The notes beneath the pieces were generated by a model. The model made no database searches and was not told the origin of the DNA. It saw only the letters and a list, made by a program, of their open reading frames with translations. This document shows, piece after piece, positions 3,226-55,794 of a DNA stretch of 64,000 nucleotides (the stretch's first letter is position 1; every line of letters begins with the position of its first letter). The stretch is from NCBI GenBank assembly GCA_020445605.1, contig JAGRGH010000032.1:124001-188000 (forward strand), written 5' to 3'. The position numbers were made by a program, and so were the translations under genes. Source of the stretch: Chromatiales bacterium. Lineage in GTDB: Bacteria > Pseudomonadota > Gammaproteobacteria > JAGRGH01.

Positions 3226-4611
3226 ATGGCCGCGAAGAAACCACTGCGCGCACTCTCCCCGTTCCTGGCCTGGCCGCCGGCCATCGCGCGCCAGCCCGCA
3301 GGGCTGCGCAAGCTCGTCGACGGTCTGGTGGACTCGCAGTGGTGGTCGCGCGACGAGATCGAAACCGGCTGGGCGGCGCAGCTGCAACTGCTGCTCGGCT
3401 GGGCGACCGCGAATGTCGAGTTCTACAAGTCCGACCCGCGATGGCTCGATGGCCTGAAGCGGTTACAAGGTCCGAAGGCGGATTTCTGGTCGACGTGGCG
3501 CTCGCTGCCGTTGCTGACCAAGCCGGACCTGCACCAGCACCGCGATCGCCTGCGCACGGCACGGCTGCCGCCGCATCACGCCCCGGCGCAGCCCGTCAGG
3601 ACGTCCGGCTCCACCGGCATCCCCGTCGAGACGCTGAGCACCGCCGTCACCGGCCGCAACTGGGGCGCGCTAACGATTCGCGATCATCTCGCCTGGAAGC
3701 GCGATTTCTCCAAACGCATGGGCGCGATTCGCTTCCTGCCGCCCGAGGGCCGTGACCCGAACGGCGTGGCGATGCGCGACTGGGGCTGGCCGGTCAAGGC
3801 GCTGTACACCTCGTCACCGGGCAGCGCGATTCACATGGCGCATCCGCCCGAAGTGCTGGCCCGCTGGCTGCACCGCGTGGACCCCGTCTACCTGCTGACC
3901 TACCCGAGCATCGCGGCGGCACTGCTGGACGCGATGGGTGCGACGGGTCGACCGCGGTCGCTGCGCGAAATCCGCTTCATGTCCGAACCGCTGGATGCCG
4001 AACTCGAACAACGGCTGCAAGGGGCGTGGAACATCCGTTGCGCGGACATGTATTCGGCCAACGAAACCGGGCATATCGCGCAGGACTGCCCGGAGCACGG
4101 CCGCCTGCACGTGCAGGCCGAAACGGTCTGCGTGGAGATCATTCGCGACGACGGCGAACCGTGCGCCGCGGGCGAAACCGGCCGCGTCGTTCTCAGCTCG
4201 CTGCACAACCTCGCGATGCCGCTGCTGCGCTACGACCTCGGTGACTACGCAACCGTCGGCGAACCCTGCGCGTGCGGGCGTGGCGCGCCGGTGATCGCCA
4301 GGGTCATGGGCCGCGTGCGCAACTACGCGCGCACGCCGGACGGGCACCGCTTCTGGCCCGGCTCGCTGGGCAAGCTCTCGGCGATCGAGGCGATCGTTCA
4401 GTTTCAGTATGTACAGACGGCTTTGGACAGCATCGAGCTGCGCGTGGTCACCTCGCGACCACTCAGTGCAGAAGAAAGCACCAGCGCAGCCGAACTTGTA
4501 CAGGCCGCACTCGGATATCCGTATCAGGTACAGATCAAGACCGTCGAGCAGATCGAACGCGGCCCGACCGGCAAGTACGAGGAGTTTCTGTCGCTGATCA
4601 ATGACAACTGA
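3226..4611 (+). CDS. PaaK-like adenylate-forming enzyme (phenylacetate-CoA ligase family)
   Basis: 461 residues from the ATG at 3226; an ATG at 3160 would add 22 residues of low-complexity sequence and neither start has a clear Shine-Dalgarno. The protein belongs to the ANL superfamily and would activate a carboxylic acid as an acyl-adenylate. Seen: the P-loop-like TSGSTGIPVET (about residue 128), YSANETGHIAQDCPEHG (about 275) and LLRYDLGDYA (about 335), all in PaaK order, with the small C-terminal domain ending in GPTGKYEEF. Cysteines in EPCACGRGAP resemble those of CapK/PaaK-type proteins from polysaccharide loci. The substrate is unknown. It is divergent from the SPFH gene and stands alone. 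Confidence 0.8.
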   Translation: MAAKKPLRALSPFLAWPPAIARQPAGLRKLVDGLVDSQWWSRDEIETGWAAQLQLLLGWATANVEFYKSDPRWLDGLKRLQGPKADFWSTWRSLPLLTKPDLHQHRDRLRTARLPPHHAPAQPVRTSGSTGIPVETLSTAVTGRNWGALTIRDHLAWKRDFSKRMGAIRFLPPEGRDPNGVAMRDWGWPVKALYTSSPGSAIHMAHPPEVLARWLHRVDPVYLLTYPSIAAALLDAMGATGRPRSLREIRFMSEPLDAELEQRLQGAWNIRCADMYSANETGHIAQDCPEHGRLHVQAETVCVEIIRDDGEPCAAGETGRVVLSSLHNLAMPLLRYDLGDYATVGEPCACGRGAPVIARVMGRVRNYARTPDGHRFWPGSLGKLSAIEAIVQFQYVQTALDSIELRVVTSRPLSAEESTSAAELVQAALGYPYQVQIKTVEQIERGPTGKYEEFLSLINDN

Positions 4612-10162: not shown

Positions 10163-10591
10163 TCAGTAGTTCGAGGGAAGGTTGCGGATGATCGTCGATC
10201 GGCGCGAACGTCCGCGCTCGCCGAACGCCTTGAATACGCTGTCGCGCACCTTGCCGAGATCGCCGTTGGCCAAGTAGTCGCGGAAGATCTGTTCCTTCTG
10301 CCCCGGTTCCAGGCGCTTGTACAGGATGAAGGTGCCGGGCAGCTGCACGCGCAGATACTCGGAAAACTGGTCTTCGCTGATCGACTCCGTGCTGGTGCCG
10401 GCGCTGCTGACCTCCGGCTCCGGCGCCCAGGCCGCCGAGTTCGAGGGGACGACGAACGAGCCGGAATTGAATTCGCGAATCTCGGCTTTCAGAACCTCGA
10501 CATAGGCCGGGTCGATGTCCGCTCGCGCACTGCACAGGGCAAGGCCCGCGGCCACGGCCGCGAGCATGCTGAACACGCCTCTCCTCATCAC
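10163..10591 (-). CDS. Secreted protein of unknown function
   Basis: 142 residues, with an N-terminal signal (MLAAVAAGLALCSARA; cleavage after ARA near residue 24). The mature part has no motif I can name; residues 70-115 (EDQFSEYLRVQLPGTFILYKRL onwards, in part LEPGQKEQIFRDYLANGD) look helical and soluble. It is the first gene of an operon with the LolA-like protein, so it probably works with it in the periplasm. Start is the ATG at 10591 or one codon later. Confidence 0.6.
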   Translation of the reverse strand: MMRRGVFSMLAAVAAGLALCSARADIDPAYVEVLKAEIREFNSGSFVVPSNSAAWAPEPEVSSAGTSTESISEDQFSEYLRVQLPGTFILYKRLEPGQKEQIFRDYLANGDLGKVRDSVFKAFGERGRSRRSTIIRNLPSNY

Positions 10592-10775
10592 TGCACCCTT
10601 GGTTGGAATTTATCGTTGGTATTGCGGGCGGGCGCCCGGCCTCACGGTCCGGTGCGACCTGCGAGACCCGATAGGCAATAGCACGGGGCAGCCGCCGGGT
10701 CAATGTCCGCGACGGCGAAAGGACGGAATTGGTGACCCGTGGCAGGATCGCGGCCTGCCGCCGCGCAGCCGGTGA

Positions 10776-11222
10776 CTATTCGGTACCGACAACCACCAGC
10801 ACGGCGCCGTCCACGCCTGCGACCTGCACGCGCGTGCCGGCGGCGAGGTCCGGGCCCGCGATGCGCCAGACGGTGTCGTCAAGCTTCAGGGTGCCGCGCC
10901 CGTTGGCAATGGGTTCGGCGAGCACGGCTGTGCGGCCGATGTACTGCTCGCCGCGACGGTTCAGAGCCGGTCGATCGGTCTGGATCGGACGCCGGCGCAG
11001 GTATGCGCGCCAGGCCACGACCGAGGCCAGGGTAAGCACCGCAAACAGCACGAGTTGCGCCTGCCAGGGGAATGCGGGCACCAGCCAGACGACGAGCCCG
11101 ACCACCCCGGCGGCGATGCCGAGCCACAGGAAGAACGTGCCCGGAGCGAGGAGTTCGACGACCAGCAGGGCGGCGCCGACGATCCACCAGCCCCAGAAGT
11201 CGAGCGGCCAGAGGGTCATCAT
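10776..11222 (-). CDS. NfeD family membrane protein
   Basis: 148 residues. Three to four membrane segments fill residues 8-72 (WWIVGAALLVVELLAPGTFF is the typical NfeD start), followed by an OB-fold-like C-terminal domain (GRTAVLAEPIANGRGTLKLD, GTRVQVAGVDGAVLVV). NfeD proteins partner with SPFH/stomatin proteins, and here the gene overlaps the SPFH gene by 4 bases (ATGA), the usual arrangement. The pair likely acts in inner-membrane microdomain organisation or protein quality control. Confidence 0.85.
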   Translation of the reverse strand: MMTLWPLDFWGWWIVGAALLVVELLAPGTFFLWLGIAAGVVGLVVWLVPAFPWQAQLVLFAVLTLASVVAWRAYLRRRPIQTDRPALNRRGEQYIGRTAVLAEPIANGRGTLKLDDTVWRIAGPDLAAGTRVQVAGVDGAVLVVVGTE

Positions 11223-12142
11223 TTGGCGTCGGTGGAGCGACGCTCCAGCGCGCTTTTCGCCAGCTCGCCGATGCCGGCCAGCGAGCCGATCAGGCTGGAT
11301 GCCTCGATCGGGATCAGCACGACCTTCTGGTTCGGCGCGGTGCCGATCTCCTTGAGCGCCTGGGTGTAGCCCTGCGCGACGAAGTAGTTCACGGCGTTGA
11401 CGTCGCCCTTGGCGATCGCCTGCGAGACCATCAGCGTGGCCTTCGCCTCGGCCTCGGCCAGTCGTTCGCGCGCCTCGGCGTCACGGAACGCGGCCTCCTT
11501 GCGGCCCTCGGCTTCGAGGATCGCCGACTGCTTCTGACCCTCGGCCTCGAGGATCTCCGACTGGCGCAGGCCCTCGGCCTCGAGGATGCGCGCACGCTTG
11601 TCGCGCTCGGCCTTCATCTGCCGCGCCATGGCATCGACCAGATCGCGCGGCGGCGTGATGTCCTTGATCTCGATGCGGGTGACCTTCACGCCCCAGGGCG
11701 AGGTCGCGTCGTCGACGACCGACAGCAGCTGCGCGTTGATCTTGTCACGCTGCGAGAGCAGCTCGTCGAGGTCCATCGAACCCATTACGGTACGGATGTT
11801 CGTCATGGTCAGGTTCAGGATCGCGTGCTCCAGGTTCGTGACCTCGTAGGCCGCACGCGCGGCATCCAGCACCTGGTAGAACACCACGCCGTCGACCGAG
11901 ACCATGGCGTTGTCGCGGGTGATGACGTCCTGGGTCGGCACGTCGAGCACCTGCTCCATCATGTTGAGCTTGCGGCCGATGCGATCGACGACCGGCACGA
12001 TCAGCTGCAGGCCCGGACGCAGCGAACGGGTGTAGCGTCCGAAGCGCTCGACGGTCCATTCCTCGCCCTGCGGGATCGATTTCACGCCCATCAGGACGAT
12101 GACAATCAGCAGCACGACGATCACAATCACGAATATGTCCAT
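11219..12142 (-). CDS. SPFH/stomatin-like protein (QmcA/YbbK type)
   Basis: 307 residues. An N-terminal membrane anchor (FVIVIVVLLIVIVLMGV) is followed by the prohibitin-homology domain (IPQGEEWTVERFGRYTRSL, LDVPTQDVITRDNAMVSVD) and a long helical region rich in Glu/Ala (ILEAEGLRQSEILEAEG repeats, about residues 205-255). This matches QmcA, a stomatin-like inner-membrane scaffold. It is co-transcribed with NfeD. Its start codon shares the CCATGG palindrome with the start proposed for the divergent TtcA-like gene, so its promoter must lie inside that gene. Confidence 0.88.
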   Translation of the reverse strand: MDIFVIVIVVLLIVIVLMGVKSIPQGEEWTVERFGRYTRSLRPGLQLIVPVVDRIGRKLNMMEQVLDVPTQDVITRDNAMVSVDGVVFYQVLDAARAAYEVTNLEHAILNLTMTNIRTVMGSMDLDELLSQRDKINAQLLSVVDDATSPWGVKVTRIEIKDITPPRDLVDAMARQMKAERDKRARILEAEGLRQSEILEAEGQKQSAILEAEGRKEAAFRDAEARERLAEAEAKATLMVSQAIAKGDVNAVNYFVAQGYTQALKEIGTAPNQKVVLIPIEASSLIGSLAGIGELAKSALERRSTDAK

Positions 12143-14796: not shown

Positions 14797-17700
14797 AACG
14801 CCCATGGGACTGTCCGGGCGCATCGCCCGGCAGTTCCTGACCACCCAGATCACGCCCCTGCTGGCCCTGGTCGGGCTGTTGCTTGGGGCGTTTGCCATTG
14901 CGATCACCCCGCGCGAGGAAGAGCCGCAGATCAACGTCACCTTCGCGAACATCTTCGTGCCGTTCCCCGGCGCCAGCGCGAAGGAGGTCGAGGAACTGCT
15001 GGCCACGCCCGGCGAACAGGTGCTCTCGGAGATCAAGGGCATCGAGCACGTGTTTTCGACCTCGCGCGCCGGGCTGGTCGTGTTCACGGTGCAGTTCAAG
15101 GTCGGCGAGGACCGCACCTCGGCGCTGGTCCGGCTCTACAACAAGATCGTCTCGAACCAGGACTGGCTGCCGCAGGGGCTCGGCGTCGGCGAACCGTTGA
15201 TCAAGCCCAAGGGCATCGACGACGTGCCCATGATCACGGCCACGCTGTGGACGCGCGATGCGACGCGCGGCAACCGCGACCTGCTGGCGGTCGCCCATGC
15301 GCTGGAGGCCGAACTCAAGCGCGTGCCCGGCACGCGCGATATCTACACCATCGGCGGGCCGCCGCGGGTCATCCAGGTCGCGCTCGATCCGGCGCGCCTG
15401 GCCGGCTACGGCATCGCCGTCAATGACCTGCGCAATGCGCTGGCCGGCGCGAACTTCTCGGTCGACACCACCTCGGTCACGGTCGCCGACCACGAAATCC
15501 TGATCAAGGCCGGCGAGCTGATCTCCTCGGTCGACGAGGTCGCCGCTCTAGTGGTCGGCGTGTTCGAGGGACGGCCGGTGTTTCTCGAAGACGTCGCGAC
15601 CGTGCACGAGGGGACCGACGATCCGAACGCCTACGTGCGATTCGGCACGGGTCCGGCGTCCGAACTGTTCGGCATTCCGGCCGATGTCGGCACGCAGCCG
15701 GCCGTGACGCTGGTCGTCGCGAAGAAGGAGGGCGAGAACGCCGTCAAGGTCGCCAAACGCATCATCGACCGAATCGAACAGCTCGAGGGCCTGTTCATCC
15801 CCGAGGGCATCGAGGTCACGATCACGCGCGACTACGGCGCCACCGCCGACTACAAGGCCAGCAAGCTCATCCAGAAGCTGAGCTTCGCGACGCTGTCGGT
15901 CGTGCTGCTGGTGCTGTTCGCGATGGGCTGGCGCGAGGCGATCGTGGTTGGGTTTGCGATCATCGTCACGCTGGCCGCGACGCTGTTCGCCTCCTGGGCG
16001 TGGGGCTTCACGCTGAACCGCGTGTCGCTGTTCGCGCTGATCTTCTCGATCGGCATCCTCGTCGACGACGCGATCGTCGTCGTCGAGAACGTGCATCGGC
16101 ACCTGGCGCTGGGTGCGCGCAATCTCGTGGAGATGATTCCGCGCGCGGTCGACGAGGTTGGCGGACCGACCATTCTCGCCACGTTCACGGTCATCGCGGC
16201 CCTGCTGCCGATGGCGTTCGTCACCGGGCTCATGGGCCCGTACATGAGCCCGATCCCGATCAACGCCTCGATGGGCATGCTGCTTTCCCTGGCCGTGGCG
16301 TTCGTCATCACGCCATGGCTTGCGAACCGGCTGATCAAGGCCGGCGGGCATGGCGGGCATGCGCATGAAGAGGAGGCCGCGCCGGCCTGGCTCGTGCGGC
16401 TGTTCGAGAAACGTGTCGGACCCTTCCTCGATCCGGATCACGGTCAGAAGCGCCGCCGCAAGCTGTTCATGGTCATTGTCGTGCTGATCATCGCGGCGAG
16501 TTCGCTCGCCCTGGTCAAGCTGGTGATCCTCAAGATGCTGCCATTCGACAACAAGTCCGAGGTGCAGATCGTTTTCGACATGCCCGAGGGCGCCAGTCTG
16601 GAGACCACCGCGCGACTACAGGACGCGGTCAGTGCGGAACTGCGACAGATCCGCGAGGTCGCGCACTTCCAGATCTATACCGGCACGGCCTCGCCGATCG
16701 GCTTCAACGGTCTGGTGCGCCAGTACTATTTGCGCCGCGGTGCGAACGTCGGCGACATCCAGGTCACGCTGGTCGACAAGCATGATCGCGACCGCACCTC
16801 GCACGAGATCGCGCGCGAGATCCGCGAACGCGTCACCCCGCTCGCCGTCGACGGCGCCAGCATCAAGGTCGTGGAGGTTCCGCCCGGGCCACCGGTGATG
16901 GCGCCGCTGGTCGCCGAGATCTACGGCCTGGACTACGACGGCCAGATGCAGGTCGCCGGAATCGTTCGCGGCGTGTTCGAACAGACACCGGACATCGTCG
17001 ACGTCGATGACAGCATCGAGGCACCGCAGCCGCGCGGCGTGGTCATCGTCGACCGCGAACGCGCCGCACGTCTGGGTGTGACGCAGACCCAGATCGCGCG
17101 CGCGGTGCAGACCGTGCTCGGCGGCGAGGACATCGGCTTCCTGCACGGCGAGAACATCAAGTACGCGGTGCCGATCCGGCTCGCGTTCTCGATCGAGGAC
17201 AAGGCCAGCATGGATACCTTCCTCGCGCTGAAGGTGCGCGCGAACGACGGTTCGCTGGTGCCCCTGTCGGAGGTCGTGACCGTGCGTCGGTCCATCCGCG
17301 AGCAGTCCATCCACCACAAGGACGGCCTGCCCGTGGTGTATGTGACAGGCGACATGTCCGGCGAGACCGACAGTCCGCTGTATGGGATGTTCGAGATCTT
17401 CTCGAAGCTGCGCCAGACACCGGTGCAGACCGGCGCGCCGCTCGAGCAGTCGTTCTTCGGTCAGCCGGCGAATCCGTATCGCTATGGCATGAAGTGGGAC
17501 GGCGAGTGGCAGGTCACCTATGAGACCTTCCGCGACATGGGCATCGCCTATGCGGTCGGCATGCTGCTGATCTATCTCCTCGTCGTCGCGCAGTTCCGGT
17601 CCTATCTCGTGCCCGTGATCATCATGGTGCCGATTCCGCTGACGGTCATCGGTGTCATGCCTGCGCACGCGCTGCTCGGTGCGCAGTTCACGGCGACCTC

Positions 17701-22162: not shown

Positions 22163-22645
22163 TCAGTGACGACCGCCGGTGCGCGCGATGTAATTGGCGA
22201 GGTGGTGCGACTCGATGTTCATGCGCATGAGGTTCTCGTGCGCAATCCGGAACAGGCTGCGCATGACCTTGTAGACGACCATCGGATGGGACATGACCAG
22301 CCCCTCGAAAGAGGCGGGCTGCATGGTGTAGACCATCGCCGCACCCAGCGCACGCAGCGTCGCGCGCCGCGGGGCCTGATCCACGAACGCGCGCGTGCCG
22401 GCCACCTCGCCGGGTTTCATCCGGTACACCACGCTCTCGCGGCCATCGTCATCGCTGACGACCGCGAGCCGACCGGCGGCCAGCAGAAACAGGCTGCTGT
22501 CGCGCTCGCCCTGCCTGACCAGCACCTCGCCATCCGTGAGCGCGCGGACCTGCATCGCGCCGGCCAGCGCCTCACATTCGTCGCGGTTGAGCTCGCGCCC
22601 GAGGTCGGAGCGCGCCAGTAGATCGCAGTCGGGTTCAGTGCTCAT
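22163..22645 (-). CDS. Cyclic nucleotide-binding domain protein without HTH
   Basis: 160 residues. Residues about 10-130 form one cNMP-binding (Crp-like) beta-roll: VLVRQGERDSSLFLLAAGRLAVV and then PGEVAGTRAFVDQAPRRATLRAL, which occupies the place of the phosphate-binding cassette. After the roll there is only a dimer helix and no helix-turn-helix, so it is not a Crp-type DNA-binding regulator. It may sense a nucleotide or act as a partner protein. It lies downstream of the globin gene on the same strand. Confidence 0.75.
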   Translation of the reverse strand: MSTEPDCDLLARSDLGRELNRDECEALAGAMQVRALTDGEVLVRQGERDSSLFLLAAGRLAVVSDDDGRESVVYRMKPGEVAGTRAFVDQAPRRATLRALGAAMVYTMQPASFEGLVMSHPMVVYKVMRSLFRIAHENLMRMNIESHHLANYIARTGGRH

Positions 22646-22747: not shown

Positions 22748-23170
22748 TCAGGCGGCCTTCTGCGCGGCGGCGGCCGCGTCCTTCATGGTCGTGGCGAGCA
22801 CACCGTAGGCCGTGGCCCAGGCCTGCTCGACCTCGGCCGTGAACGCCGGACCGAGTCCCTGCGCAAGGGTCCACAGCAGCGCCGCACCCACGGTGTCGTA
22901 GTGTTCGTCGGTGACGCCGTAGTCCACATGCCGACGGCCGAGATCCTGCACCGCCGGGACAATCGCATCAAGATTGTCGAGCCCGAGCACGGCGGTATTG
23001 ATCATCTTCATGAGCTTCGCGCCCTGCATGCGCATATCGCCCTTGAACATGGGCTTCAGCGACGGGTCGAGTTCAAAAAGCTTGCCGTAGAACAGAGCGG
23101 CGGCCTTGTCCGCGATCGGCAGCACGGGCGACCAGGTGCTCTGGACGAGTTTGATCTGTTGGGGAGTCAT
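22748..23170 (-). CDS. Single-domain haemoglobin (Vitreoscilla-type globin)
   Basis: 140 residues, the usual size. MTPQQIKLVQSTWSPVLPIA is the classic start of bacterial haemoglobins and flavohaemoglobin N-termini. The proximal HisF8 is in RRHVDYGV (about residue 85), Phe CD1 in KPMFKGDMRMQ (about 42) and a distal Gln follows. There is no reductase domain, so an electron donor must come from elsewhere. It likely binds O2 or NO. The start overlaps the stop of the upstream cytochrome c gene (ATGA), placing it in the nitrogen/redox operon, which favours NO detoxification. Confidence 0.88.
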   Translation of the reverse strand: MTPQQIKLVQSTWSPVLPIADKAAALFYGKLFELDPSLKPMFKGDMRMQGAKLMKMINTAVLGLDNLDAIVPAVQDLGRRHVDYGVTDEHYDTVGAALLWTLAQGLGPAFTAEVEQAWATAYGVLATTMKDAAAAAQKAA

Positions 23171-23550
23171 GGTTGTTTCTCCAGTTCGTACAAGTAAAGA
23201 CGCGCCAGTGCCGCCATGTAGTCTACGGCGGCAATGACTTCGGGGTCGCTCAGATCGGGGTTCCCGCCACGGGGCGGCATGTAGGCATCGTCACTGCCGA
23301 AGAACCCTTCGATCGCATGCGCGTGCAACATGCCGAGCGGTTTTTCCAATCGCGCACGCCATTGCCCGGGCCTGCGTGGATTCGGCGCGCCCGCCACGCC
23401 GAAGGCGTGGCAGGTCGCGCAGTGGTCCAGCCAGATTCCACGACCGTATTGAAGGTGCGGATCCTCGAACCGGGCAAAATCTTCTTCCGCGTGGAGCGGA
23501 ACGCACGCAAGCATTGCCAAGCCCACGCAGAGCGTTCCCGCGGCACGCAC
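23167..23550 (-). CDS. Monohaem c-type cytochrome
   Basis: 127 residues with a cleavable signal (CVGLAMLACVPLHA). One haem site, CATCH in WLDHCATCHAFGVAGAP (about residue 43), and a likely axial Met in DDAYMPPRGG (about 91), as in class I / c5-like cytochromes. It would carry electrons in the periplasm. It is 4 bases downstream of the DUF3365 gene and overlaps the globin gene by 4 bases, so the three are translationally linked. Confidence 0.88.
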   Translation of the reverse strand: MRAAGTLCVGLAMLACVPLHAEEDFARFEDPHLQYGRGIWLDHCATCHAFGVAGAPNPRRPGQWRARLEKPLGMLHAHAIEGFFGSDDAYMPPRGGNPDLSDPEVIAAVDYMAALARLYLYELEKQP

Positions 23551-23554
23551 GTTG

Positions 23555-24151
23555 TCAGCCTTCCACAGGAATGCGGATGACCACGCCGCCCATCACGTCG
23601 CCGATCTTGAAGTCGTCCCTCGGCGTATCCGGGTGGGCGTTGTGGCAGGCGGAGCACACGGGCGCGACCGCGGTGTCGGCGTACACGGCGGTGAAGTACT
23701 TCACGCCACCGAGTTCCTCGGTCGTGTAGTAGTTCTTGCCCTTGTTTTCGGCCACGAACTTCAGTCCGACCTTTTCGGCGTCGGTCTTTGGGGAGTTCTG
23801 CTTGTTGATCGGCCACAGCGACTGCAGCGAGTAGCTGAACTTCACGTCCGGCATATCCTTGGCCTTTTCCATCGCGTGCTCTGAGCCGAAGCGGAACATC
23901 TGTGCCGGCAGCGGCAGCGACTTGTCGTCCTCGAAATGCTCGGTGGCCTTGATGACCTTCTCCTGCTTGACCAGCCGGTTGACGACCTTGCGCGTGTAGA
24001 CGGTGCGGTCGGAGTCCATCACCAGATGCAGCGCGTCGGCCATGGCCTTCACCGACACCATCGCTTCTCCCGCGGCGGTGGCGACAAAGCCGGTCGCCAG
24101 TGTTCCGGTTGCGGCAAGCGTCACGAGACGCATCGTGCGTTTCACATTCAT
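23555..24151 (-). CDS. Exported DUF3365 (Tll0287-like) haem protein
   Basis: 198 residues from the ATG at 24151, which has GAGG upstream; a GTG at 24172 is less likely. Signal peptide about residues 1-28. The body fits the DUF3365/Tll0287-like fold, a PAS-like domain with covalently bound haem, with VCSACHNAHPDTP (about 165) as the CxxCH site, then DDFKIGDVMGGVVIRIP. Unlike the 55.8-kb protein it has no HAMP or membrane domain, so it is a soluble periplasmic haem protein, perhaps a ligand sensor or electron carrier. It is probably first in a transcript with the cytochrome c and globin genes. Confidence 0.8.
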   Translation of the reverse strand: MNVKRTMRLVTLAATGTLATGFVATAAGEAMVSVKAMADALHLVMDSDRTVYTRKVVNRLVKQEKVIKATEHFEDDKSLPLPAQMFRFGSEHAMEKAKDMPDVKFSYSLQSLWPINKQNSPKTDAEKVGLKFVAENKGKNYYTTEELGGVKYFTAVYADTAVAPVCSACHNAHPDTPRDDFKIGDVMGGVVIRIPVEG

Positions 24152-24256
24152 TTCAGTTACCTCGCGTTTCACGTAAAGATGCAGAACTGCCGGATGACCC
24201 GGCAGGTGTCGACGACGGCACAGCGACCGTGTCGCAACGGGTCGATTCGATGGCCT

Positions 24257-24272
24257 TGCAATTCGCCCGCCA
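24257..24272 (-). promoter_or_regulatory. Candidate sigma-54 promoter upstream of the DUF3365-cytochrome-globin genes
   Basis: On the minus strand TGGCGGGCGAATTGCA has GG and GC at the exact -24/-12 spacing (10 bases between) and a perfect TTGCA half. The -24 half TGGCGGG differs from TGGCACG at two positions. It lies just after the multihaem cytochrome stop and 105 bases before the DUF3365 start. Weaker than the two promoters at 28.5-28.7 kb. Confidence 0.45.
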
Positions 24273-24274
24273 TC

Positions 24275-25699
24275 TCAGAACCCGAACATTTCCCCATCGT
24301 CTCCACCAGCGGCAGCCTTGGCGTCTGCGCGTTCCTTCTCGGCACGCGCCAGTCGCATCGTTTCGTGTACCCCCTGCGGACGTCCCTGAAAGTTATTGGT
24401 GATCAGTTTCCCGTCGGCCAGGGAACCGAGAGAAAATTCAAGTCCATGACAGTTCAGGCAGGCCGAACGCAACATCTTCGAGTTCGGCGAGAGGTTCGCA
24501 CTCTGGTTGTGTTGCACCCCGACACGTGACATCCACTCGTTCACTGCGACATCCACCCGCGGCATGTGACAGGCGGCACAGGACACACCACTGCCGGACG
24601 GCCCGTCACCGGCGAGTTCGGCCTGCCACGATTCGAAGTGCTTCGATTTGCGGTAGGCGAGACTGTGCTCGTCGGCGTGACAGCCAAGACACGCCTCGAC
24701 CTGCGCGTGACGCGTATCGAAGTCATGTGCGCCATGACAGGCGACACAATCGAGCTTGAGATCGGCCGCATCCGCCTGCATTGGCAGCCGCGCTGCGGTC
24801 GGCTTCATCGGATCGAGTCCGTGGGCAAGTCGCATGCCATGCTTGCCGGCACCGTGGCCGCCGATCTCAACCGCGTGACAGGCCTTGCAGCCGTTGCGAT
24901 CCGGGCGTTCGTGCCAGACGGCCGCTTGATCCTGCGAAGGTGCGTAGACATGACATGCACTGCAGTTGACGCCGGCGTTCGCGTGAGATGAGGCAAGCCA
25001 CTGTGCGCGCAGCGTTGCATCGCCGACGGATTCCGCCGGCGCATCCATCTCGGATTCGGTCAGCAGCCGCACCGGATATGCCTTGTGCGGATAGTCCGAC
25101 AGCTCTGGCACCAGCGCCGCGAACTCGAGTGCGGGTCGCACCTGTTCATCGAGCATCGCGGGTTCGTCCAGGTGTTTGGTCAGAAAACGCGTGTAGAGAT
25201 CGCGGTTGTCGTGAAAATTGTGGCAGCCCGAATCCTTGCAGGTCTCGAACCCGAGCCCTGCGTGGGACGGCCGGTCCTCGGCGATGTCCTCATGACAGGT
25301 CGCACAGACGTCGACTGGCCGCGTAAGACCGTCGCGCGCCGTGATCTCGGGTCGGTGTTCGACGTGACAGGTCGTGCAGTGCAGGGCGTCGATGCGCTCG
25401 AGCCGATCGGCATTGCGTGGGTCCTCGAACTTCGTGCGCGGATGGGAATCCTGTGGTTTCTTGCGATCCGCGCCATGGCAGTCGATGCAGGCCTGCTGCA
25501 AGACCTCGCCACCACCGAAACGCTCGGTATGGCAGAGATGACAGGCGTCCGCGAACTGGTGATGACCGTCGCTCAACGGGCCAGGCATGTAGGCGGTCTG
25601 CGCGGTCGGCTCGAGCATCGCATACGCCAGCCAGGCGGCCAGTGCCAGCGAGGCCAGGCCCCAGCCGCTCCACCACAGTGTCTTGCGCGACATCGCCAT
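24275..25699 (-). CDS. Membrane-anchored periplasmic multihaem cytochrome c (11 haem motifs)
   Basis: 474 residues. An N-terminal helix (WWSGWGLASLALAAWLAYAML) exports and anchors it. Ten CxxCH motifs are visible at residues 53, 71, 108, 132, 246, 271, 318, 337, 374 and 414, plus one variant C-x3-CH (CKDSGCHNFHDN, 154). Many extra histidines can be axial ligands. No CxxCK was seen, so it is not an obvious NrfA. It starts 3 bases after the stop of the NirB-like membrane oxidoreductase, so it likely takes electrons from that protein. A role in reducing nitrite, hydroxylamine or another N-oxide is inferred from the NarK/ANTAR/NtrC context. Confidence 0.85.
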   Translation of the reverse strand: MAMSRKTLWWSGWGLASLALAAWLAYAMLEPTAQTAYMPGPLSDGHHQFADACHLCHTERFGGGEVLQQACIDCHGADRKKPQDSHPRTKFEDPRNADRLERIDALHCTTCHVEHRPEITARDGLTRPVDVCATCHEDIAEDRPSHAGLGFETCKDSGCHNFHDNRDLYTRFLTKHLDEPAMLDEQVRPALEFAALVPELSDYPHKAYPVRLLTESEMDAPAESVGDATLRAQWLASSHANAGVNCSACHVYAPSQDQAAVWHERPDRNGCKACHAVEIGGHGAGKHGMRLAHGLDPMKPTAARLPMQADAADLKLDCVACHGAHDFDTRHAQVEACLGCHADEHSLAYRKSKHFESWQAELAGDGPSGSGVSCAACHMPRVDVAVNEWMSRVGVQHNQSANLSPNSKMLRSACLNCHGLEFSLGSLADGKLITNNFQGRPQGVHETMRLARAEKERADAKAAAGGDDGEMFGF

Positions 25700-25702
25700 G
25701 GC

Positions 25703-27679
25703 TCAGAAGTAGTAGGCCTTGACGATATGCGCGGCGAGCAGCACGGGTACCGGCCACAGCACGAGCAGGTGCAGCCACACGGCCGAACGCCTCAAGGTGG
25801 TGGCCTGCCCGCGCGGCAGCCGATGCTCGGTCGCGATCACCAGCGCCGCGACCGCGCCGGCGAAAAGTGCCAGTGCGAATGCGGTGGCAAGCCAGCGATT
25901 GAGGTTTTCGCCGAAGCGGAAACCGGTGTGGGCGGCAAACACCGCAAGCACGCAAAGCCCGAGCACCGCATGCCAGACACGCCAGCCGGCGAACGCACCG
26001 AGAGACAGGCGCCGCACGCGTTTGCGAACAACGATTGCGCTCAGACCAACACCGAGCGCGAGCAGGGTGTAGCCGCTCAGCTGACGCCATAGCCCGTCGC
26101 GCCAGATCTCGTCCCAGGGCACCGCATGCTGCGCGGATTGCGCAAAAGGCAGTGCCGGTAGAAAGACCGCGAGTGCCAGAAGGATCAATGCCGTGAGCGC
26201 AAGCGCCCCCTGCGCCGCATGTCGTTCCGCGGGCGCGAGCTGTCCCTGACCGACGAGTTCAGCGAGCAGCGGCCGGCACGAGCCACAGACATTCGATGCG
26301 CCGGTCGCCTTGCGCAGGCCATCGACCGTTGTGTAACCCGCACGCATCGCGGCCGACAGTTCGCCACGACAGATGTTTCTGCAGTTGCACACCACCGACG
26401 CCGCGGGCCAGCGCGCCACGGCCGCGCTCTGCGCGCTCGCGTAGAGATCGCCGGTGCGGCGAAACCGCCAGAGCTGCCATGGCCATACGCGCCGGTTGCG
26501 CAAAACGGCCGCATGGATGCGCGCGCCCTGCTCCCATGGGCCATAGGCGATCACGCCGACGAGCCGGTCGCGGTGAATCACCAGGCGGCGATAGCTCTGG
26601 TCGTTCTTCCAGACGACGTCGCGCGCCAGACCGATTGCGGCGTCGGCCGCGACACGGCCGGCACTCAGCACGCTCTCGCCGACGACCTTGAGCTGCGTGC
26701 CGGGAACCGAGCCACGGTAACGGGCCTCGCCGCGCAACACGGTTTCCGCAGCGACGGCCGCCTGATCCAGGCCAGGCGCGACCAGCCCGTAGATCTTGCC
26801 ATCGTGCTCGGCACACTCGCCGATCGCCCAGATGTGCGGATCGGACGTGCACATGCGGTCGTCCACCCGTACGCCCCTGCCGACCGACAGCCCGGCGTTG
26901 TGCGCGAGGTCGACATTCGGGCGTATGCCGGTGGAAAACACCACCGTATCGGTCTCGACCACGCGGCCGTCACGCAACCGTACCCACTCGACCCGCCCGC
27001 GGCCGCCGATTTCCTCGACCGCCTCGGACAGGCGCAGGTCCATGCCGAGGCTGCGCAGATAGGCGGCCAGCCGGGCACCGGAATCCTCGTCGAGCTGCGC
27101 CATCATCGGCCACGGTGAATGCTCGACGAGGCAAACCTCGGTGTGCAGCCGCTGCATGGCGCGGGCGGTCTCGATGCCGAGCAGGCCGGCGCCAACCACC
27201 ACCACGCGACGCGCGCGCGTGCGCCGGGCGGCGAGCCGCTCGGCATCGGCGAGATCGCGAAACGTAAACACACCCGAGAGCTCGCGACCAGGAATCGCCG
27301 GCACGTAAGGCCGCGAACCGGTAGCAAGTACGAGCATGTTGTAGGTCCAGTGCGCACCGCCGGCATCGGTGACCGAATGCAGCCGACGATCGATCTCGGT
27401 GACCCAGCGTCCCGGCAGCAGCGTGACGTTGTCCGGCAACGTGCCGTCGGTCAGATCGCCGAGCGTGACCGCACCCGCGAGATAGCCCGACAGGCGCACG
27501 CGGTCGTACGGCAACACACTTTCTCCGGAAAACAGGCTGATCGCGAGGCTCGGCGCGCGCTTCGCAAGCCGGCGCGCGAACGCGATGCCGACCGGACCCG
27601 CGCCGATCACGGCAACGTCGGCGTGCCGTGTGGCGGGCGCGGCGGCGGTACGAGCAACGTGTTCTGCAAGGGCAGCCAT
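25703..27679 (-). CDS. NirB-like FAD/NAD/[2Fe-2S] oxidoreductase fused to a di-haem-b-type membrane domain
   Basis: 658 residues from the ATG at 27679 (GGAG 6 bases upstream). Residues about 20-310 are a pyridine-nucleotide-disulfide oxidoreductase with FAD motif [15 protein letters not shown] and NAD motif [18 protein letters not shown] NirB-like middle part is followed by a BFD [2Fe-2S] domain ([12 protein letters not shown] ... VCGSC, about 425-470). The sirohaem/[4Fe-4S] catalytic domain of nitrite reductase is absent. Instead the last 170 residues form five or six helices with two His pairs ([10 protein letters not shown]...[17 protein letters not shown]...LLAAHIVKA), as in bis-His b-type cytochromes. 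I infer electron transfer from NAD(P)H through FAD, Fe-S and haem b to the adjacent multihaem cytochrome. Confidence 0.82.
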
Positions 27680-27694
27680 GATTTCTCCAGGCAC

Positions 27695-27714
27695 AAAAAA
27701 GGCGCTTGCGCGCC
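27695..27714 (-). terminator. Intrinsic terminator in the leader of the NirB-like gene
   Basis: On the minus strand GGCGC-GCAA-GCGCC is followed by six T, only 16 bases before the start codon of the oxidoreductase. A terminator inside a 5' leader means attenuation. Hairpins upstream and the ANTAR protein gene next door suggest antitermination by an ANTAR regulator. Confidence 0.75.
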
Positions 27715-27811
27715 GGCTCTTCCGTTCAAGAGCCACGCACAAACGCCGTTGTTGGTTTGCAGCCCGGCAGCGGGCTGGCTTGTTCGGGCGCGCGCTGCAT
27801 CGCGCACGCCC
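27715..27811 (-). promoter_or_regulatory. Probable ANTAR antiterminator leader RNA (hairpins before the terminator)
   Basis: Three minus-strand hairpins precede the terminator. The first (27811-27786) pairs GGGCGTGCGC with GCGCGCGCCC around the 6-base loop GATGCA. The second (27778-27760) pairs CAGCCCG with CGGGCTG around CTGC. The third (27734-27715) pairs GGCTCTT with AAGAGCC around the 6-base loop GAACGG and directly abuts the terminator. Two hexaloop hairpins before a terminator is the ANTAR-target layout, but the usual A1/G4 loop bases are not both present. Confidence 0.5.
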
Positions 27812-27884
27812 TCTCATTCAATTCAGCTTCGCCTCAGCGGCGGGCGCACGCTTCGGCTGGATCGTCTGCGCGCGCAGTCTCGGT

Positions 27885-28463
27885 TCAGCCCAGCAGCTCC
27901 GCGCTGTCGAGCAGTCCGCGGGCGATCGCCCCCATGCGCTGGTTTCGCTGCATCGCGAGCCTGCGCAACAGATGGTAGGCATCGTTTTCGGAAAGCCCGC
28001 GTCGGTTCATCAACATGCCCTTCGCGCGCTCAACCAGCTTGCGTTCGTCAAGCTGCGCCCGCGTCTCAGCGAGGTCGGTTCGCACCTGCGCGCATTCGGA
28101 AAACCGCGCATGCGCAATGCGAACGACCGCATCCAGCTGCAGGGCCGAAGTCTCATCGACCAGAAATGCGCCGACGCCGGAGTGCGCGAGCTGATCAACG
28201 GTGTCGCGGTCTACGTCATCCGCGATCAGCACCGTCGGCACATTGCGCGCGATCTGTACCTTGCCGAGCAGGGAAAAGAACTCCGCGTCCGGACGCCGGC
28301 GCCCGATCACCAGTACATCGGGCATCTCGTGCGACACCGTCGCCGCGAGGCCGTCGAAACCCGACAGCTGCGCGAGCACGCGATGTCCGTACTCGCGCAG
28401 GTCCGCGACCAGCGCATCGGCACGGGCTTCGTTGCGTTCGGCGACAACCACGCTCAGTGACAT
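27885..28463 (-). CDS. ANTAR-domain RNA-binding response regulator (NasT-like)
   Basis: 192 residues from the ATG at 28463. Residues 1-125 form a receiver-like domain ([36 protein letters not shown]); the usual phosphoacceptor Asp pocket is poorly kept, as in NasT-type pseudo-receivers. Residues about 130-190 are the ANTAR domain ([20 protein letters not shown], then [13 protein letters not shown]), which binds paired hairpins in nascent RNA and prevents termination. The likely target is the leader directly downstream, before the NirB-like gene. No NasS-like sensor is in the window. Transcription starts from a consensus sigma-54 promoter. Confidence 0.88.
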
Positions 28464-28731: not shown

Positions 28732-28819
28732 GATGGGGATACGGCGCGGCACTGATGCCGCCCACATACGCCCGGGCAATGGCGCCCGTGCACTGGCAAC
28801 GCAGACCGGAACCATCGCT

Positions 28820-30292
28820 ATGTCCACGACCCGACTGAACCTGCTGTCGTTCACCGGCCCGGTGCGCACCCTGCACCTGACCTGGCTGGCGTTTTTCATT
28901 TCCTTCTTCGTGTGGTTCAACCACGCGCCGCTGCTCGCTTCGCTGCGCGAGACGTTCGGGCTGAACGACCAGCAGATCAAGACGCTGCTCATTCTGAATG
29001 TCGCGTTGACGATTCCCGCGCGCATCGTGGTCGGCATGCTGGTCGACCGGCTCGGGCCGAAGCTGATGTATTCGTTCCTGCTCGTGATCTCCGGCGGGCT
29101 CTGTCTGTTGTTCGCCAGTGCGGACGACTACACGCAGTTGGCGATGACACGCTTCGCACTCGGTTTCGTCGGCGCGGGCTTCGTCATCGGCATCCGCATG
29201 ATCGGCGAATGGTTTCCGGCCCGACAGGTGGGACTGGCCGAAGGCATCTACGGCGGCTGGGGCAACTTTGGTTCGGCGGCCGCGGCGATGACGCTGCCGG
29301 CACTGGCGCTGTGGTACGGCGGCGAGGCCGACGGCTGGCGCTATGCGATCGGCACGACCGGCATCATCGCGCTCGTCTACGGCGTGATCTATTTCTTCTC
29401 GGTGCAGAACACGCCGAAGGGCTCGACGTATTTCCGCCCGAAACGCACCGGCGCAATGGAAGTCTCCAGCCGCGGTGACTTCGTGCTGTATCTGGTCATG
29501 AACATCCCGATGTATGCGGCGCTCGCGCTGCTGACCTGGAAGCTCGCCCCCGCGAATCTCGGACTGCTCAGTGATACCGCTGCGCTCAGCATCTACGTCT
29601 TGCTGGTTGTGGTCTATGCGCTGCAGGCGCTGCGCATCTATCAGATCAACGCACAGGTGTTCGCCGGCCCGGTTCCGGAGATCGATCGCTACCGGTTCAG
29701 CCAGGTCGCGGTGCTCGATCTCGCCTACCTCGTGACCTTTGGTTCCGAGCTGGCGGTGGTCTCCATGCTGCCGCTGTTCTTCCAGGATACCTTTGCGATC
29801 TCGCAGGTGCAGGCCGGACTGCTGGCTTCGGGCTTCGCGTTCATGAATCTGCTCGCGCGACCGGGCGGCGGACTGGTGTCGGACCGGTTCGGACGGCGCC
29901 GTTCGCTGATCGTTCTGCTGGTGGGCCTGATGGGCGGCTATGCAATGATGAGCCTGATCGACTCGAGCTGGAGCCTGTGGCTTGCGGTCGGGGTCACCAT
30001 GGCCTGTTCGTTCTTTGTTCAGGCTGGCGAGGGCGCGGTGTTTGCCGTCGTTCCGCTGATCAAACGGCGCATGACCGGGCAGATTGCCGGCATGGCGGGC
30101 GCGTATGGCAACGTCGGCGCGGTGGTCTTTCTGACCGTGCTGTCGTTCGTCGAGCCTCCGGTGTTCTTCCTGACCATCGCCGGCGCGGCGCTCGTGGCGC
30201 TGGTGGCCGTCGCGCTGTTCCTGCGCGATCCGGCCGGGCACATGGTCGAGGTCCTGCCCGACGGCACGCTGGAACGCATCGCCGTGCATTGA
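28820..30292 (+). CDS. Nitrate/nitrite transporter, MFS NarK/NasA family
   Basis: 490 residues from the ATG at 28820, with about 12 membrane segments. Nitrate-signature regions are visible in [16 protein letters not shown] (about 150) and [14 protein letters not shown] (about 430), and the conserved arginines in helices 2 and 8 appear in [16 protein letters not shown] and [15 protein letters not shown]. It imports nitrate or exchanges it for nitrite. It is transcribed from a sigma-54/NtrC promoter, divergent from the ANTAR gene, which indicates use under nitrogen limitation. A PP2C-kinase fusion and mobA follow on the same strand. Confidence 0.9.
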
Positions 30293-30430: not shown

Positions 30431-32122
30431 ATGGCACAAACACTCGAGTTTGAACACGCGCTGATCTCCGAGACCGGTCCGCGCGCGCTGAACGAAGATC
30501 GTGCCGCGGTTGGCGGACCGGTAATGCGCGGTGGCGCGCCCGTTGCGATCGCCGTGCTATCCGACGGCATTTCGGGCGGCGAGGGACAGGCCGCCAGCCG
30601 CGCCGCGGTGGACGGCTTCATCCAGGACTTTCTTTCGACGCCGGATTCCTGGACCGTGCGCAACAGCGGCGAGCGTGTGCTGACCGCGCTGAACCGCTGG
30701 CTGTATTCCCACGGGCAGATGCGGCGTGGAGCGGTCGGCTGCACGTTCAGCGCGGCGGTGCTGCGTGGCACCAGTGCGCACCTCTTCCACGTCGGCGACT
30801 CACGGATCTGGCTGTTGCGCGACGGCGAGTTGGAACAGCTTACCCACGATCACCGCATCGAGATCGGCCCGGAACGTACCCACCTTTCACGCGCGCTGGG
30901 TGTGGAGCCGGTCGCGGGCGTCGACTATCGTGAGCAGCCGCTGGAAGCCGGCGATCGATTGATCTTCACGAGCGATGGCGTTCACGACGCGATCGATTCA
31001 GCACGGTTTCGCGCCGCAGCCGTACTGCCGGGCACGGAAGAAGGCGCCCGCGCGATGGTCGAGGCCGCACTGGCCGCCGGCGGACGGGACAATGCGACCG
31101 CACTGATTCTCGACATCAGGACGCTGCCTGTCCGCTCCGCCGAAGAATATTTTCGTGATCTGACCAAGCTGCCATTTCCACCGCCACTCAATGTCGGTGA
31201 CACTTTCGATGGCTATCGCATCGAACGCGCGCTCAGCGCATCGAAGCGCAGCGAGATCTTTCTCGCGCAGGACATTCAGACCAACACGCGGGTCGTGCTC
31301 AAGGCGCCGTCGGTCAACTACGACGACGACCCCGTGTATATCGAGCAGTTCGTGCTCGAGGAATGGGTCGGCTCGCGCGTGCGGCATCGCAACGTCGTGC
31401 GCTATCACGCACCGGCCGGACGCACACGCAGTTTTCTGTTTCACACCGCCGAGTTCATCGACGGTCAGACCCTGCGGTCATGGATGCAGGCCAATCCACA
31501 GCCACCGCTTTCGGCCGTGCAGAACATCGTGCGACAGATCGCAAGCGGACTGGACGCACTGCATCGCCTGGAGATGGTCCACCGCGATCTGAAGCCCGAG
31601 AACATCATGGTCGATGCAAAAGGCCGGGTGAAGATCATCGACCTCGGTTCGACGCTGATTCCGGGTGTGCTTGAAGTGCCCTCGCCCGTCGCGCGCGATC
31701 ACCTCGTCGGCACCGAGAACTACACCGCGCCGGAGTTCCTGCGTGGCGCGAGCGGCAATGCCGCGGCGGATGTGTACTCGCTCGGCGTCATTGCGTATGA
31801 GCTTGCCTGCGGCAAGCTGCCTTACCGGCATCCGCCGCGCGGACCGAGTGACTGTCGCACGCAGTACCAGTCGCTGACCACACGGGTACCAACCATTCCG
31901 GTGTGGATGGATCGCGCGATCGAGCGCGCCGTGCGCTGCGCACCGCCCGCGCGCTACAGCACCGCAGCGGAATTTGCCGCCGATCTGGACAAGCCCAATC
32001 CGCAGTATCTGCGTCAGCCCACCGCGCCCCTGATGGAGCGCAATCCGCTGCGTTTCTGGCAGGGCATTGCCTTCATCGAGGTCGTCGTCATCATCGTGCT
32101 CGCTGCGTTGTTCGCGTCATGA
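30431..32122 (+). CDS. PP2C phosphatase-Ser/Thr kinase fusion, membrane tail-anchored
   Basis: 563 residues. Residues about 5-235 are a PP2C-type phosphatase with metal-binding motifs LSDGISGGEG, FHVGDSRIWLLRDGEL, FTSDGVHD and GGRDNATAL. Residues about 265-525 are a Hanks-type kinase: Lys in VVLKAPS, catalytic loop HRDLKPENIMVD, DLG in place of DFG, and APEFLRG. A single C-terminal helix (IAFIEVVVIIVLAALFA) anchors it. Such fusions lie next to nitrate transporters in other proteobacteria as I recall, so it may control NarK or nitrate reductase by phosphorylation. Its stop overlaps the mobA start (ATGA). Confidence 0.88.
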   Translation: MAQTLEFEHALISETGPRALNEDRAAVGGPVMRGGAPVAIAVLSDGISGGEGQAASRAAVDGFIQDFLSTPDSWTVRNSGERVLTALNRWLYSHGQMRRGAVGCTFSAAVLRGTSAHLFHVGDSRIWLLRDGELEQLTHDHRIEIGPERTHLSRALGVEPVAGVDYREQPLEAGDRLIFTSDGVHDAIDSARFRAAAVLPGTEEGARAMVEAALAAGGRDNATALILDIRTLPVRSAEEYFRDLTKLPFPPPLNVGDTFDGYRIERALSASKRSEIFLAQDIQTNTRVVLKAPSVNYDDDPVYIEQFVLEEWVGSRVRHRNVVRYHAPAGRTRSFLFHTAEFIDGQTLRSWMQANPQPPLSAVQNIVRQIASGLDALHRLEMVHRDLKPENIMVDAKGRVKIIDLGSTLIPGVLEVPSPVARDHLVGTENYTAPEFLRGASGNAAADVYSLGVIAYELACGKLPYRHPPRGPSDCRTQYQSLTTRVPTIPVWMDRAIERAVRCAPPARYSTAAEFAADLDKPNPQYLRQPTAPLMERNPLRFWQGIAFIEVVVIIVLAALFAS

Positions 32123-32691
32123 GGGCACCGGCACGCGCTGACATCACGGGTGTGATCCTGGCCGGCGGTCGCGGCACCCGCATGGGCGGGCGCGACAAGG
32201 GTTGGGTCGAGTATCGGGGCCGGCCGCTCGTCGAGCACGTGCTGGAGCGGATTACTCCGCAGGTCGACAGCGTGATCATCAGCGCGAACCGGAACATTGA
32301 ACGTTATGCCGCGCTCGGGCACGCCGTGGTGAACGACGGCGAGTTCGAATACCACGGACCACTGGCCGGAATTCTCTCCGCGGCGAAAGCCGCGGCAACA
32401 GACTGGATGTTTGTCGTGCCCGTGGATGCACCGCTGTTCTCGACAAATCTCGCGCAACAGCTGGCGCGGGGACTGGGCACGGCGCCGCTGGTTTGGGCCA
32501 ACGACGGTGAGCGCGATCAGTATGCATTCTGTCTCGTGAAGCGCGAAAGCGCACTGTTCCTCAACGAGGAACTCACCGCAGGTCGTCTCGCCCTGCGGGA
32601 ATGGCTGGCGAGATCAGGAGGACACGCCGTGGACGTGCCCGAACCGGAAATGTTCCGGTCGTTCAACCGCCTGATTGATACCCTGGACTAA
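32119..32691 (+). CDS. mobA: Molybdenum cofactor guanylyltransferase
   Basis: 190 residues. MobA joins GMP to molybdopterin to make the MGD cofactor of nitrate reductases and related enzymes. Seen: the nucleotidyltransferase signature VILAGGRGTRMGGRDKGWVE (residues about 12-31), GPLAGILSAA (about 77) and VVPVDAPLF (about 94). The start overlaps the kinase-phosphatase stop by 4 bases, so MGD production is tied to the nitrate module, although no molybdo-nitrate reductase gene lies in this window. The last 29 bases overlap the 3' end of the convergent secreted-protein gene. Confidence 0.92.
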   Translation: MRAPARADITGVILAGGRGTRMGGRDKGWVEYRGRPLVEHVLERITPQVDSVIISANRNIERYAALGHAVVNDGEFEYHGPLAGILSAAKAAATDWMFVVPVDAPLFSTNLAQQLARGLGTAPLVWANDGERDQYAFCLVKRESALFLNEELTAGRLALREWLARSGGHAVDVPEPEMFRSFNRLIDTLD

Positions 32692-55660: not shown

Positions 55661-55794
55661 CATTCTGGCCGCCGCCCCTGTCGCGGCGGCGATTGAGCGA
55701 ATCGCACGAGGTGTGGCGCCGCGCCACGCGGGCCGTGTCCTGCTAGGATTTGCCGCATCGATCGCCAAGCAACGGCCGCCGGAGGCTCGGGCAG

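Follow-up and report, generated by a model that had tools for sequence, protein, structure and literature searches.

A candidate transmembrane electron path from NAD(P)H to an eleven-haem cytochrome in a bacterial nitrate-assimilation regulon

In the usual teaching, bacteria assimilate nitrate within the cytoplasm in two steps, with NasA and NirB. What, then, would be the role of an operon that joins a NirB-like flavoprotein to a periplasmic cytochrome with eleven haems and sits in a nitrate-assimilation locus? The question is raised by a 64,000-nucleotide stretch of DNA from a Chromatiales bacterium (GenBank assembly GCA_020445605.1, contig JAGRGH010000032.1, positions 124,001 to 188,000 of the forward strand), here called the window; positions below are those of the window unless another locus is named. 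The operon is read here as a nitrate/nitrite-induced inner-membrane electron path of the nitrate-assimilation regulon, whose end use would be the handling of nitrogen oxides, mostly nitric oxide (NO), an interpretation to which we give an even chance of being right. The electron path itself is well supported; the terminal substrate we infer. Computation established the parts, their conservation and co-occurrence, and the leader. The operon and its leader comprise, in the direction of transcription:

27695..27777, minus strand: ANTAR-type two-hairpin mRNA leader overlapping an intrinsic terminator
25703..27679, minus strand: flavoprotein, 658 amino acids, with NAD(P)H/FAD, Rubredoxin_C-type and BFD [2Fe-2S] domains and a predicted five-helix di-haem-b membrane part (domain search, alignment, structure model)
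24275..25699, minus strand: 11-haem cytochrome c, 474 amino acids, predicted to be periplasmic and inner-membrane-anchored, with ten CxxCH and one C-x4-CH
23555..24172, minus strand: stand-alone DUF3365/Tll0287 (sCache_heme) monohaem c protein, core partner
23167..23550, minus strand: small periplasmic cytochrome c, accessory, 11 loci
22748..23170, minus strand: single-domain globin, Hmp/Vgb type, accessory, 14 loci

The gaps between these five genes, from flavoprotein to globin, are 3, 102, 4 and -4 nt. The first is the distance that the original prediction, a reading of the DNA letters alone, had given between the flavoprotein stop and the cytochrome gene, and the DUF3365 haem protein, cytochrome c and globin follow in the order that it stated.

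The cytoplasmic part of the flavoprotein has the NirB-like FAD/NAD and BFD domains that had been claimed for it: Pyr_redox_2 occupies residues 21-310 (E=1e-57), Rubredoxin_C residues 326-392 and Fer2_BFD residues 429-476 (E=4e-11), and over residues 19-485 the protein is about 38% identical to the NirB encoded by the source genome. The NirB model TIGR02374 covers residues 23-476 only, i.e., model positions 2-465 of 794, and the sirohaem half is therefore absent, again as predicted; the domain search found no sirohaem/4Fe-4S NIR_SIR domain (PF01077) in this protein. In the AlphaFold model the C-terminal 175 residues fold into five helices, predicted to be membrane helices (mean pLDDT 81 for the whole model, about 60-80 for the membrane part). 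The two His pairs expected in helices do lie there, H570 and H584 in one predicted helix (563-585) and H637 and H651 in the last (623-641/643-657). Both pairs are spaced H-x13-H, and the four residues, together with all four BFD cysteines, are invariant in 22 homologues that are 35-47% identical. An invariant RKR at residues 552-554 would mark a cytoplasmic loop, from which we infer that H570 and H637 face the inside and H584 and H651 the outside.

The H-x13-H spacing is that of transmembrane di-haem b proteins, e.g., NOX enzymes; in the NOX/FRE ferric reductases and in MsrQ, two such pairs in membrane helices pass electrons outward from cytoplasmic NAD(P)H and flavin. The flavoprotein resembles these systems in its two pairs and in a weak Ferric_reduct similarity, and differs from NOX/FRE in that its flavin module is of the GR type, NirB-like and followed by BFD, and that its acceptor would be a dedicated multihaem cytochrome; FNR-type FAD/NAD domains are absent from the window protein and are present only in one homologue, that of genome G493. 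Pfam matches of the membrane part are weak (DUF4405 in 12 and Ferric_reduct in 5 of the 22 homologues, the latter, PF01794, below its cut-off with a best E=0.003). A profile search by sequence found no PDB relative of the membrane domain, Foldseek with the full model matched the FAD/NAD part alone, and searches with the flavoprotein returned only NirB-type proteins of staphylococci and others from genome contigs and only NirB-like matches from plasmids.

How widely is this arrangement kept? Of 369 genomes of the class, 26 carry the cytochrome, and these cover 22 of 272 genera; among 399 genomes drawn from the phylum it is present in three, namely the source genome, a second genome of the class and one from a different class. 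Apart from the window, 28 cytochrome loci were examined. The original prediction had named co-occurrence of the oxidoreductase with the multihaem gene as one of its tests, and at 26 of these loci the cytochrome gene has as its neighbour the flavoprotein gene or one for a variant of the membrane domain; the exceptions are L087, which has none, and L088, where the contig ends. The DUF3365 subfamily is found at 27 loci, counting the window, and at 285 bits or more in 24 genomes of the class, all of them cytochrome carriers; the best non-carrier scores 202 bits and other non-carriers at most 92. The core of three genes (flavoprotein, cytochrome, DUF3365) is thus kept across many genera, with globin (14 loci), cytochrome c (11), ANTAR (9), nrtABC (8) and porin (4) genes as companions, and the recurrence of the gene set at more than 20 other loci is far beyond chance. 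At L087 (genome G283, 10239-11558), the cytochrome homologue has 11 CxxCH and lies beside a rhodanese gene, with flavoprotein and DUF3365 genes not nearby.

The membrane part looks like a modular wire that has several times exchanged one cytoplasmic input for another. In G493, which belongs to another class, membrane domain, cytochrome and DUF3365 are the same, and the cytoplasmic part consists of BFD and then FNR-type FAD_binding_6 and NAD_binding_1; in a second copy of the system in G179 (L086, 7985-9235), GPP34 (Golgi phosphoprotein 3) is fused to the di-haem-b domain beside a second cytochrome-DUF3365 pair; and in G285 the membrane part stands without any flavin module. That one membrane wire is joined to two unrelated NAD(P)H-flavin modules makes NAD(P)H the likely donor, and the wire with its periplasmic partners the constant part. 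The path from NAD(P)H across the membrane to the multihaem cytochrome, as originally proposed, is thus upheld by domain order, the four invariant helix His, the RKR loop, the adjacent cytochrome and the G493 swap.

The swaps also bear on the idea that the FAD/BFD module is mainly a NasC/Flp-type donor to cytoplasmic NasA, with the membrane part as an anchor or second outlet. Flp is needed for growth on nitrate in Bradyrhizobium (PMC4724949), and the source genome encodes, on a contig other than that of the operon, a NasA that lacks a BFD domain, with NirB the only other NirB/NasC-like donor found in that genome. Yet the H-x13-H pairs and the adjacent cytochrome are kept in G310, whose NasA has its own BFD, and the membrane part persists without the FAD module in G285 and in the second G179 copy. 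We consider such a role very unlikely.

More distant relatives of the membrane domain occur across the phylum (L097-L107). These di-haem-b-like proteins of 275-350 amino acids resemble the operon protein in carrying two H-x13-H pairs and in lying beside a multihaem cytochrome, and differ in that the gene on the other side, the presumptive input, is a cyclic-nucleotide-binding 4Fe-4S protein, that the cytochrome is another one and that a nitrate-assimilation context was not seen at these loci, some of which have an FHA domain. They apparently belong to a wider uncharacterised family of membrane electron modules.

What would receive the electrons? The cytochrome has an N-terminal anchor helix (residues 2-29) and the ten CxxCH motifs that had been counted in it; its odd site, earlier given as C-x3-CH, in fact reads C-x4-CH (CKDSGCH, residues 154-160), as in some class III cytochromes. 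Exactly 11 His are invariant in addition to the 11 proximal ones (25 sequences; the same columns are invariant in 27), which would allow bis-His ligation of all haems, as in an electron conduit, and the cytochrome may be only a wire. A catalytic haem may still be among them, since an active-site His would count in the extra 11. The cytochrome shows a local likeness to NrfA, ONR and HAO: its profile resembles NrfA/ONR haem segments (E about 1e-8), and its structure model, in which residues 79-164 are poorly modelled, is closest to HAO (6t5e, E=4e-3). It differs from them in its 11 haems, its membrane anchor, its capacity for all-bis-His ligation and the absence of the CxxCK haem of NrfA; PF02335, the NrfA family, scores 19.0 bits in the window protein against a cut-off of 24.1, and near or below the cut-off in the family.

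The likeness suits a reading in which the cytochrome, or the DUF3365 protein, is a periplasmic nitrite or hydroxylamine reductase delivering ammonium to assimilation, as does the nitrogen metabolism of some carriers. NrfA is in no carrier, its matches being the cytochrome itself or other weak ones, and four well-completed carriers (G010, G051, G127, G179) have no NirB or NirA-like genes, G127 with nrtAB beside the operon. Against it stand the missing CxxCK, the low PF02335 scores, the eleven plus eleven invariant His that would suffice to ligate every haem (even if an active-site His could be one of them) and the distribution of NirB. Among the 369 genomes of the class, 166 have a NirB above cut-off; the protein is present in 21 of 26 carriers versus 145 of 343 non-carriers (odds ratio 5.7, Fisher p=1.3e-4, a value that is indicative only, the genomes being related); its gene is close to the operon in G137 and G310. 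An ammonium-forming reductase is distinctly unlikely on this evidence. Replacement of NirB by the operon as a general rule was rejected, given these counts and the NirB of the source genome, and the earlier notion of a stand-in for sirohaem nitrite reduction falls with it.

An all-bis-His cytochrome would also fit a wire that supplies other periplasmic enzymes, e.g., NapA, or an outlet that balances NAD(P)H redox under nitrate and has no substrate of its own. The source genome has NapA, and in G044 the operon is followed by nrtABC and napA; however, NapA is above cut-off in only four of 28 carriers, and neither version explains the obligate DUF3365 partner. We regard this reading as unlikely.

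NasA-type nitrate reductase is found in most carriers. A link to NirS denitrification was rejected, NirS being present in four of 28 carriers (NirK was not searched). In the source genome, contigs C59, C9 and C49 carry paired DsrA/DsrB-like genes, NirS with neighbouring Cytochrom_D1 proteins, and NapA; the organism is probably a sulfur-metabolising denitrifier that also assimilates nitrate.

What controls the operon? In the window leader, P1 spans 27760-27777 (loop GCUGCC, with G instead of A at position 1) and P2 27742-27753 (loop AACGGC), and the U6 that closes the terminator, at 27695, lies 15 nt 5' of the flavoprotein ATG; an in-frame upstream ATG would extend the flavoprotein to 27817, where the leader terminator sits. 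Two hexaloop hairpins (loops, e.g., AACGGC, AAAGGC, AAUGGC), the second overlapping the 5' arm of the terminator, occur in most operon leaders, and the pair is present in 15 of 33 leaders of the operon, nrtA and narK versus 0.34 expected from shuffles. When 12 leaders of other genomes are aligned, pairing in P1 and the terminator helix reaches 98%, and none of 500 shuffles gives as much covariation; P1, unlike the terminator helix, had been picked by its pairing. A covariance model (R1), built from leaders of other genomes with the window left out, matches the window leader at 27695-27777 (E=4.6e-6) and nothing else there below E=0.1; elsewhere, it matches the nrtABC-nirB-nasA leader on another contig of the source genome (E=1.9e-8) and, in related loci, 21 strong sites before operon, nrtA and porin genes. 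The window site was found by direct scan; a scan of the whole source genome, in which 150 of 1092 candidates were scored, did not have it among its matches. Rfam gave no credible match on the window leader. The two-hairpin/terminator layout is that bound by NasR and NasT (PMC7496416; PMC6759348). Nitrate/nitrite-responsive control by a predicted NasT-type antitermination leader is thus supported, and by sequence the operon appears to belong to the nitrate-assimilation regulon; nitrogen control, proposed in the original prediction, now has stronger support, the leader being common to nrtABC-nirB-nasA.

Porin-like (Alginate_exp) genes at two loci (L078, 13663-14874; L079, 2275-3516) have ANTAR-type leaders of their own, a strong site at 14907-14983 and a weak one at 3541-3624, respectively; it seems that an outer-membrane channel belongs to the nitrate regulon as well.

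Around the operon lie:

27885..28463, minus strand: NasT-type ANTAR antitermination regulator, 192 amino acids, upstream of the operon
28746..28788, plus strand: two A1/G4 hexaloop hairpins 5' of narK, weak (model E=0.14), with no terminator seen
28820..30292, plus strand: NarK-family nitrate/nitrite transporter, divergent (TIGR00886 above cut-off)
30431..32122, plus strand: PP2C phosphatase and Ser/Thr kinase fusion, directly after narK
32109..32691, plus strand: MobA, molybdenum cofactor guanylyltransferase, start approximate (TIGR02665 above cut-off)
22163..22645, minus strand: cyclic-nucleotide-binding-domain protein, 3' of the globin gene, operon membership uncertain

The ANTAR gene with the divergent narK, the PP2C-kinase fusion and mobA, the last being consistent with this assignment, identifies the whole as a nitrate-assimilation locus.

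How might the parts work together? NasT-type antitermination would open the operon together with nrtABC-nirB-nasA. NAD(P)H would reduce the FAD of the NirB-like module, and electrons would pass via the BFD [2Fe-2S] cluster to two stacked b haems, the inner held by H570/H637 and the outer by H584/H651. The anchored 11-haem cytochrome would accept the electrons next and pass them to the DUF3365 haem protein, in some species also to the small cytochrome c. The order from NAD(P)H through eleven c haems to DUF3365, the direction of flow and the haem stacking are all suggested by the anatomy of the parts. Outward electron flow fits the usual membrane potential. The operon probably serves to deal with the toxic nitrogen oxides, chiefly NO, to which nitrate/nitrite assimilation gives rise: NO would be reduced or bound by the periplasmic branch, and in the cytoplasm the globin would dioxygenate it to nitrate, possibly with electrons from the same flavin/Fe-S module.

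NO is favoured because of the regulon, the globin and its replacement in one carrier, and a precedent in Bradyrhizobium. The globin keeps Tyr B10, Gln E7 and the proximal His, the NO-dioxygenase residues, and is a putative NO dioxygenase of the Hmp type; in G142 (L082, 7227-8952) a truncated haemoglobin and a 2Fe-2S/FAD/NAD reductase take its place. NO detoxification has been demonstrated for the NasT-linked narK-bjgb-flp-nasC locus of Bradyrhizobium, whose Flp and Bjgb guard the cell against the NO that nitrate assimilation generates (PMC4724949). That locus and the present one share NarK, a single-domain haemoglobin, an FAD/NAD flavoprotein and nitrate-regulator control in a nitrate-assimilation setting; unlike it, the present locus has the membrane di-haem b, multihaem cytochrome and DUF3365 components, its nasA and nirB are located elsewhere, and NasC is not in the operon.

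The DUF3365 protein matches Tll0287 (E=6e-17) and has a CxxCH haem c site, as does the stand-alone Tll0287 sCache_heme (PMC12889525); a profile search with DUF3365 found no PDB relative. It differs from Tll0287 in being an obligate partner of an 11-haem cytochrome and in its ligands: among 26 sequences of the subfamily no Cys is invariant besides C173 and C176, so that the axial Cys and the Cys/His ligation of Tll0287 are absent, and the haem pocket may therefore be open. DUF3365 domains fused to signalling modules bind NO tightly and sense it (PMC12889525). The binding is a further point in favour of NO; the sensing would suit a view of DUF3365 and the cytochrome as a sensor of NO or redox state in the periplasm and not a metabolic chain. 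The operon, however, has no transmembrane signalling partner, the DUF3365 family here is stand-alone, and eleven haems with an NAD(P)H module would be costly for a sensor; this alternative is most improbable.

Several observations weigh against NO handling as the end use. A stand-alone DUF3365 member with Cys/His ligation binds NO only weakly (PMC12889525), though the window subfamily lacks its Cys ligand. The globin is present at only half of the loci. Most carriers lack NirS, so their NO load would not come by that route, and all 11 c haems can be bis-His, leaving no open catalytic haem evident.

A bolder proposal, which we judge rather unlikely, makes the system a new NAD(P)H-driven periplasmic reductase complex for nitrogen oxides (NO, nitrite, hydroxylamine) in aerobic nitrate assimilators, with DUF3365 as the catalytic end subunit fed by the 11-haem cytochrome. 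If so, this would be the first enzymatic role for a DUF3365 domain, and the complex the first nitrate-assimilation system working across the inner membrane.

Each part of the operon thus resembles known ones. The flavoprotein shares the FAD/NAD and BFD [2Fe-2S] modules, and the regulon, with NirB and NasC/Flp; unlike NirB, it has a five-helix di-haem-b domain and no sirohaem/4Fe-4S, and its partner is a periplasmic multihaem cytochrome. As a whole it is of a known kind, the transmembrane di-haem-b electron path linked to NAD(P)H; what appears to be undescribed is the fusion, the triad and the regulon placement, and no published description of these or of the operon was found in the open-access literature. 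A conserved operon under the same RNA switch, sending electrons to the periplasm, would point to an unnoticed periplasmic side of nitrate assimilation, probably concerned with toxic nitrogen-oxide control. It would also place DUF3365 haem proteins and multihaem cytochromes in a physiological setting other than respiration, one open to testing.

The window holds a second DUF3365/Tll0287 domain (55750-58046, plus strand), fused to HAMP in an architecture like that of the NO sensor of PMC12889525. Its gene shares 4 bases with the start of a Ser/Thr protein kinase gene, and the two are a possible periplasmic NO-to-kinase signalling pair.

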